From: Candidatus Poribacteria bacterium
Lineage (GTDB): Bacteria; Poribacteria; WGA-4E; WGA-3G
DNA: 64,000 nt
Direction of reading: 5' to 3'
NCBI GenBank assembly: GCA_026702755.1
Contig: JAPPBX010000115.1
Coordinates: forward strand, 1-64,000
Made by a program: the position numbers and the translations under genes. The notes under the pieces were generated by a model. That model was not told where the DNA came from. It worked only from the letters and a program-made list of their open reading frames with translations, and did no database searches. Each line of letters begins with the position of its first letter. The first letter of the stretch is position 1. Below are positions 8,756 to 11,289 of the stretch, piece by piece.

Positions 8756-9502
8756 CTAATACGTTGCTCTTCCGCCACTGACATCGTAGCACTGCCCTGT
8801 CACAAAACTTGCTTCATCTGACGCTAAGAAATTCACTACAGCAGCGACTTCCTCCGGTTTCCCAACGCGTCCCAACGGAATCTTACCCACCATATAATCA
8901 ATGGTTGATTGTGCCATACCTTCCAATATCGGTGTTTCAATGACCGCTGGAGACACTGCATTCACGCGGATATTATAGTCCGTTACCTCCTTAGCGAGTG
9001 CCTTCGTTAAGCAGATGACCCCCGCCTTAGATACGGAATATGGGATGAGCGTCGGATTACCCTCCTTGCCAGCAATCGAGGCGATGTTCACAATCCTGCC
9101 GTAGTCCTGCGCGATCATGGGAGCAATCACGGCTTTACAACAGAGAAAAACACCTGTCAGATTCACACCTATCACGCTGTCCCAATCCGCCTCTTCTAAG
9201 TCCGTCAATGGAAGTGTGCGTCCTGCAATCCCGGCATTGTTGACGAGAATGTCAACACGACCAAAGGTGGAAATAACTTTTTCGACAGCAGCATTGACAT
9301 CTGAAGAAACCGAAACATCTGCCTGAACGGGCAGTGCTTTGCGTCCAGTAGATTCAATCTCCTGTGCGACCGCTTCGGCTGCCTCCATGTTTAAATCCAT
9401 GATAGCGACATTCGCGCCTGCGTTCGCGAGTCTGATGGCAATCGCTTTACCAATACCTTGTCCCGCGCCTGTCACAATCGCAATTTTATCCGTTAGATTC
9501 AT
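8756..9502 (-). CDS. short-chain dehydrogenase/reductase (FabG-like)
   Basis: This 248-residue classical SDR shows the NAD(P)-binding TGAGQGIG motif at residues 11-18, NNAG at 88-91, and the catalytic Ser142-Tyr155-Lys159 set (IASIAG and YSVSK). The C-terminal GQCYDVSGG resembles 3-oxoacyl-ACP reductases and sugar or sorbitol dehydrogenases; substrate cannot be read from sequence. Asp36 at the end of beta-2 (AIMDLN) favours NAD over NADP. The start at 9502 has AGGAG 8 bases upstream; a longer in-frame start at 9553 lies inside the upstream gene and is rejected. The gene overlaps the 3-prime end of the AhpD-like gene by 17 bases, so the two are probably co-translated. Confidence 0.92.
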   Translation of the reverse strand: MNLTDKIAIVTGAGQGIGKAIAIRLANAGANVAIMDLNMEAAEAVAQEIESTGRKALPVQADVSVSSDVNAAVEKVISTFGRVDILVNNAGIAGRTLPLTDLEEADWDSVIGVNLTGVFLCCKAVIAPMIAQDYGRIVNIASIAGKEGNPTLIPYSVSKAGVICLTKALAKEVTDYNIRVNAVSPAVIETPILEGMAQSTIDYMVGKIPLGRVGKPEEVAAVVNFLASDEASFVTGQCYDVSGGRATY

Positions 9503-10058
9503 CAAAATCCCTCCTGAGTTCCAAAAAATCGTCCAATTCAACGCCGAACGCATCCGCTATCCGATTGATGTAGCTGAAAAAGCCAACGACTTCCACAATA
9601 GCGAAGAGTGCTTCGTCAGTGAGTCCATAGCTGCGGAGGTGTTCAAGGTCTGCTGGCGTAACAGTAGCTGCTGCTTTTGTTACTTTACCAGCAAATTCAA
9701 GGATCGCTTTTGTAGTCTCGTCAATATCGGCCTTGTGAAAATCCGTTACAATCTGTGCAATTTGTGCATCTGTGAATTGTGCCCGCAACTCATCCGCGTG
9801 TGCGATTATTCAGTAGTGGCATTCGTTCACTTTCGAGACGACAGTTGCAATCATTTCACGTTGCATTCGGCTCAGCGGAGAGTCCTCGTCAAACATTATC
9901 GCTATGTAAAGTTCAATAAAAGGACGCATGCTTTTTGGTCGGACACTGAGAAGTTTGACGATATTGTAAACTTGTCCTGCCCGTGCAATTGCAGCGTCAT
10001 ATTCCTCTTTCACGATACCGGTTGCTTCGGCTTCATCTACAGTGCGAATCCATGCCAT
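9486..10058 (-). CDS. AhpD-like peroxidase-related protein, probable selenoprotein (CxxU)
   Basis: The reading frame is 190 codons with one internal TGA at 9812-9810. Upstream it reads ...REMIATVVSKVNECHY, then TGA, then IIAHADELRAQFTDAQ.... The family (AhpD/carboxymuconolactone decarboxylase fold, peroxidase-related branch) has CHYC followed by His at this place, so the UGA replaces the second Cys of the redox CxxC, giving C80-H-Y-U83. With the UGA read through, the protein has the family's usual length and both halves match it without a frame change. Selenocysteine is therefore the best reading; a nonsense mutation is the alternative. A weak CGCA/TGCG stem with a 13-base loop begins six bases after the UGA (9804-9784) and is a poor but possible bacterial SECIS. 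The ATG at 10058 follows GGAGAG; the upstream gene stops one base before it. No selA, selB or selC is visible in this window. Confidence 0.75.
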
Positions 10059-10059
10059 T

Positions 10060-11289
10060 TTACTCTCCAATCACGACACCGTATTCACCTACGACCGCGC
10101 CTTTGTGCCCCGTTTGGTAGTGTAGGTGTCTTTCACCGACAATCGGTTGTGTGCTTTGCACTTCAACGGTCCCACGGACTTTTCCCATGGCACCTTCATC
10201 CATATCCGAACAGTGGAACGGCTTGATTTGGCGGTGCACCTGCCGACGAATCTCACCTTGCCGATTGCGGACGATGACGTTGACCAAGGCATCTGCTTCT
10301 CCGACGTTAAGGAATCGGAACCAGTCCCATGCACCACCCGCAATTTCAGGGAAAAAGAGTCGGATTCCGACCTGTCCCCCCTCGACCGATGCTCCGGGGA
10401 GGTCGACAATGGCTGTTCCGCTGTGCATGTGTCGTTCGGCGACAACCGGCTGATCGCTACGGACCTCTACGGAGGAATTTACATTAATGTCGTCTATAGG
10501 TGGTGTCCAACACTGAAAAGGTCTCAGTCCATCCATTCTTTTTGTCCATGTGGCTTGCGCGTTGTCATCTTTACGTGCGATCATCGTCACTTCCGCTTCT
10601 TCTGTTCCAACGTTGACGATCACGACCCAATCTTGCCATGCGGGTCCGACCTCTGGGAAAAAGAGTGTACGGGGCGCATCTGAAATCACTTGTCCGAACT
10701 GCCCGACACATGTCTTTCCTCCTTGATAGTGGAGATGGCGTTCACCGACAATGGGTTGTGAACTTTGCATCTCTACGGTGCCGGTAACGTTCCCCATAAC
10801 CCCTTCGTTGAGATCCCAACAACAGAGAGGGTCGATAACGTGGTGTCGCTGCCTGAGTACATCGCCATTTCTGTTTCGGACAGTTATGTTGACGTGCGCA
10901 TCCGCTTCACCGACGTTTAGAACCCGAAACCAATCGTGGGCACCAGAAACTAATTCTGGGAAGAAAAGTCGTTGTCCGACTGTTTCATACTCTTCAGCTG
11001 CCCCGACAAAATCAAGGACATTCGTACCTTGGTGCATGTGCCGTTCTGCCACAATCGGTTCGTCCGCAGTGAACTGCATAGAGGAGTTCTCTTTAATCTC
11101 CTCAACGTTTGGTATCCAAGACTGGAAGGAGCTTACTGTTTTTTCAGCGGACCAGGTCGGTTGTCCGTTCCGAGCATGTCTCGCTATCGCAGTTATACGG
11201 GTATCTTCAGTACCCACGTTCGTAACTTGGACCCAATCTTGCCATTGGGGTCCTACTTCTGGAAAATAAAGGGTCGTTGCTCCTGGCAT
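10060..11289 (-). CDS. four-module repeat protein of unknown function
   Basis: This 409-residue protein is built of four modules of about 100 residues in an A-B-A-B order. A modules start with FPEVGP.WQDWV...NVGTE (near residues 9 and 214). B modules start with LFFPE...WDWFR.LNVGEADA (near 108 and 314). Each module ends in a Q/EP(I/V)V(A/G)ERH(M/L)H motif, with the B modules continuing HYQ. The pattern resembles beta-sandwich repeats of cell-surface proteins (DUF5719-like), but no signal peptide is visible, so location is unclear. The start has AGGAGG 5 bases upstream. Its TAA lies one base before the ATG of the AhpD-like gene, so it heads a coupled operon with that gene and the SDR. Function not known. 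Confidence 0.8.
   Translation of the reverse strand: MPGATTLYFPEVGPQWQDWVQVTNVGTEDTRITAIARHARNGQPTWSAEKTVSSFQSWIPNVEEIKENSSMQFTADEPIVAERHMHQGTNVLDFVGAAEEYETVGQRLFFPELVSGAHDWFRVLNVGEADAHVNITVRNRNGDVLRQRHHVIDPLCCWDLNEGVMGNVTGTVEMQSSQPIVGERHLHYQGGKTCVGQFGQVISDAPRTLFFPEVGPAWQDWVVIVNVGTEEAEVTMIARKDDNAQATWTKRMDGLRPFQCWTPPIDDINVNSSVEVRSDQPVVAERHMHSGTAIVDLPGASVEGGQVGIRLFFPEIAGGAWDWFRFLNVGEADALVNVIVRNRQGEIRRQVHRQIKPFHCSDMDEGAMGKVRGTVEVQSTQPIVGERHLHYQTGHKGAVVGEYGVVIGE

Follow-up and report, generated by a model that had tools for sequence, protein, structure and literature searches.

A gene in the genome of a sponge-associated Candidatus Poribacteria bacterium very probably encodes an AhpD-like thiol/selenol oxidoreductase in which an in-frame UGA, codon 83, would be read as selenocysteine (Sec) by means of SelB and a SECIS hairpin (probability about 0.96). 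The selenoprotein reading is strongly supported by what the sequence holds, namely the conserved UGA, the hairpin, the Sec machinery, selection on both sides of the UGA and the catalytic residues. A preliminary description had proposed a selenoprotein with a CHYU motif at this place; the machinery, the invariant TGA, the selection beyond the UGA and the covarying hairpin now support that proposal. The features are listed by their positions in the window, the whole 64-kb stretch of DNA that was analysed.

9486–10058, minus strand: predicted Sec-containing AhpD-like (TIGR01926 peroxidase-related) gene; ATG start, 190 codons plus a TAA stop
9810–9812, minus strand: in-frame UGA, codon 83, putatively read as selenocysteine (CHYU); all orthologues with sequence at this site have TGA
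9774–9791, minus strand: SECIS-like hairpin with a 6-bp stem (9791–9786/9779–9774) and a 6-nt loop, CGGGCA (9785–9780); covariation and suppressed synonymous variation
8756–9502, minus strand: short-chain dehydrogenase gene, downstream (open reading frame (ORF) list and synteny)
10060–11289, minus strand: repeat-protein gene without a Pfam match, upstream (ORF list and synteny)

Translation of the minus strand from 10058 to 9486 gives 190 residues (M..NECHY-U83-IIAHADEL..NG*) with a single TGA and no change of frame, which bears out the earlier observation of one 190-codon frame broken only at 9812–9810. Codon 83 lies within ...SKVNECHY-U-IIAHADELRAQ..., and an ordinary ORF listing cuts the gene here into ORFs of 86 and 100 amino acids. 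The gene is tightly packed between its neighbours: the ATG and ribosome-binding site of the short-chain dehydrogenase gene fall inside its last codons, and the upstream repeat-protein gene stops one base short of its ATG. The repeat protein has 409 amino acids and consists of repeated units (LFFPEVGPAWQDWV...NVG...ERHLHYQ); it keeps its upstream position across the family. Only two of the 2,333 in-frame TGAs in the six frames of the window have a longer open frame on both sides than codon 83. We rejected the two other long TGA-interrupted frames, the translations of which, by eye, resemble antisense shadows of other genes.

Profile scoring of the read-through protein, with Cys placed at residue 83, assigns it to the NCBIfam peroxidase-related family TIGR01926 (155.1 bits; curated cut-off, 81.8) and to the Pfam CMD family (40 bits; cut-off, 23). 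The model NF041238 (AhpD_rel_CFYUT) has a related domain and a CxxU motif, but the protein scores 80.3 bits against it, below the cut-off of 175, and is not a member. U83 falls at the second Cys of the CHYC (CxxC) site and aligns with a Cys in the solved family structures 2pfx, 2prr and 3c1l, as expected from the earlier placement of the UGA at the second Cys of an AhpD-like CxxC. The residues E68, C80, Y82, position 83 (U, or C in one sequence) and H87 are invariant as E-x11-C-x-Y-U/C-x3-H in all 50 sequences of a set that includes one Cys paralogue. Their spacing is identical to that of the active sites of PA0269 (Glu36, Cys48, Tyr50, Cys51, His55) and Mycobacterium tuberculosis AhpD (Glu118, Cys130, His132, Cys133, His137) (PMC3141380). 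At the level of sequence, E68, C80, Y82, U83 and H87 are thus a match to the AhpD proton-relay set.

We searched 85 poribacterial genomes with the Cys-substituted query and recovered 44 orthologous loci, the window copy included, at 55–99% identity to that query and 55–97% to the window copy, together with five more distant relatives at about 31–37%; the named orthologue records are Candidatus Poribacteria. Codon 83 is TGA in every one of them (44/44 and 5/5), across four families of the phylum, and none of these 49 loci has Cys at that codon. A TGA at this catalytic codon is shared by more than 45 genomes, single-contig ones among them. Stop-free sequences with Cys at site 83 are distant paralogues (about 30–39% identity). 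One of these, a TIGR01926 paralogue that scores 212 bits (L071, G062:C127:5463-5963), comes from a genome in which the Sec form occurs as well, and was possibly gained by transfer or mis-binned. There is strong purifying selection on both sides of the TGA, with dN/dS values of 0.01–0.11 before it and 0.05–0.15 after it in a simple Nei–Gojobori count over ten relatives. Sister genomes that end at the stop or decay past it, which the preliminary description had named as evidence against a selenoprotein, were looked for; the sister genomes show no such decay, and the frame is open, with purifying selection on both sides.

The hairpin follows the published bSECIS rules (loop of 3–9 nt, stem of 4–16 bp, G in the first two loop positions, loop 16–37 nt after the UGA and a minimum free energy of −7.5 or lower; PMC13188914), with its 6-nt loop, 6-bp stem, loop start 24 nt past the UGA and −8.5 kcal/mol. 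Across 40 distinct sequences, aligned without gaps, 99.6% of the hairpin cells are paired, compared with only 17–45% in slid versions of the stem, and the loop reads CGGGNN or CGUGNN. Compensatory changes occur at three of the six stem pairs, one of which is found as GC, AU and CG; they total 24 cells, where shuffles give 5.5 and slid stems give 0. RNAalifold, unaided, returned the same six pairs. Synonymous choice within the hairpin is constrained: the six-fold degenerate Leu codon at +8 is TTG in 37 of 37 sequences and the Gln codon at +11 is CAA in 36 of 37. The support for the hairpin is comparative, because the window sequence alone folds no more stably than its shuffles (z = −0.14, single-sequence folding). 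An Rfam scan of the window returned no match, so that a SECIS is neither supported nor excluded by an Rfam family. The weak CGCA/TGCG stem pointed out earlier after the UGA is not the conserved one. The five distant relatives (L067–L070 and L072) seem to use a different SECIS-like hairpin, ACGCRGA-GUU-UCUGCGU, the loop of which lies 17 nt past the UGA instead of 24; five sequences are too few for covariation.

All four genes of the Sec pathway that the preliminary description had suggested looking for are present in the same genome: SelA (7.5 × 10−157), SelB (1.2 × 10−104), SelD (2.7 × 10−106) and tRNA-Sec (selC, 78 bits), with selB and tRNA-Sec on one contig, separated by about 120 bases. An in-frame TGA within KCAG-U-ASK makes SelD another probable selenoprotein of the same genome (L012, G000:C96:159939-160862). 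Of the 85 genomes of the phylum, 76 have SelB and 72 have tRNA-Sec. From these data we infer the insertion of Sec itself, a peroxide or disulfide substrate and a reductant. SelB carrying selenocysteyl-tRNA-Sec would bind the SECIS hairpin just 3′ of the UGA, and ribosomes would decode UGA-83 as selenocysteine to give the full 190-residue protein. In this protein, U83 at the second CxxC position would have C80 as its resolving partner and E68, Y82 and H87 as its proton relay, and the predicted activity is the reduction of a hydroperoxide or disulfide via a selenenylsulfide.

Could the UGA instead be a real stop, or an error of sequencing, leaving a pseudogene, or an 82-amino-acid truncated protein and a downstream internal ORF? 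Conventional gene calling does return two ORFs, and relatives do contain genuine pseudogenes and deletions of the gene at its usual locus. Yet the recurrence of the TGA at a catalytic codon in so many genomes, the purifying selection past it and the covarying hairpin make this explanation very improbable, and conservation has in practice already refuted it. Even less credible is a reading of UGA as another amino acid, through suppressor read-through or genome-wide recoding to Trp or Gly. Such recoded genetic codes do exist in some uncultured bacteria, but TGA ends 7 of the 42 window ORFs of at least 250 amino acids, and UGA is therefore not globally recoded here. The complete Sec pathway, the alignment of residue 83 to a redox Cys with a SECIS-like hairpin then following, and the SelD TGA, already consistent with Sec, also stand against it.

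The predicted selenocysteine at UGA-83 has precedents in related proteins. The Sargasso Sea survey of 2005 reported 27 AhpD-like CxxU selenoprotein sequences (PMC1088965), Global Ocean Sampling data contained 299 in the family AhpD-like 1 (PMC2398784), and a 2026 review table lists 'AhpD-like protein, TIGR01926, CxxU' as a selenoprotein family (PMC13188914). The gene described here has the family model, the CxxU motif and the Sec position in common with that catalogued family, and its lineage is Candidatus Poribacteria; a search for 'selenoprotein' together with 'Poribacteria' found no paper with both in the collection of papers covered. That the poribacterial gene adds a new member to a selenoprotein family known since 2005 is very well supported. 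The Cys-containing peroxidase-related structures 2pfx, 2prr, 3c1l, 2oyo and 6k40 show homology across about 150 residues, with E values from 1e-21 to 1e-28, but their sequences lie far from those of the poribacterial family and, in the alignments shown, they have Cys where Sec is predicted here. Canonical AhpD of M. tuberculosis and PA0269 share the five-residue active site but belong to another subfamily; M. tuberculosis AhpD has His132 and Cys133 in place of Tyr and the predicted Sec, and we saw no sign here of a partnership with AhpC.

SelA and SelB are reported to be enriched in sponge-symbiont genomes (PMC5649159), and the poribacterial gene would be a concrete client for that machinery, in an uncultured phylum in which plain ORF calling breaks it into two short ORFs. 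With its covarying hairpin and the in-place deletions described below, it offers a clean and testable selenoprotein case that alters no principle.

Six genomes of the same genus (L075–L080: G053, G082, G073, G070, G064 and G066) have lost the gene by deletion in place, with flanking genes intact; one of them, G082, is a single-contig genome. The space between the neighbours is 54–122 bases, in five different sizes, rather than about 555–586, and scraps of the gene ends remain. Because the deleted loci occupy four separate places on the flanking-gene tree, some nodes of which have low support, at least four independent losses within the genus are likely, and the gene, deleted in several relatives, is dispensable. 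We rejected a link between gene loss and loss of the Sec machinery, as all six deletion genomes retain SelB and tRNA-Sec. One conceivable reading, towards which we are inclined to be sceptical, is that within the genus the gene is kept with Sec or not at all, with repeated excision in place, no conversion to Cys and the machinery retained. The enzyme would then work only with Sec and fill a role tied to its niche, such as the handling of peroxides in sponges, and the machinery would be kept by other clients. In the single-contig genome G023, the copy of the gene (L066, G023:C1:3747719-3748219) carries an extra TAG where the SECIS lies as well as another TGA, and is apparently a pseudogene.
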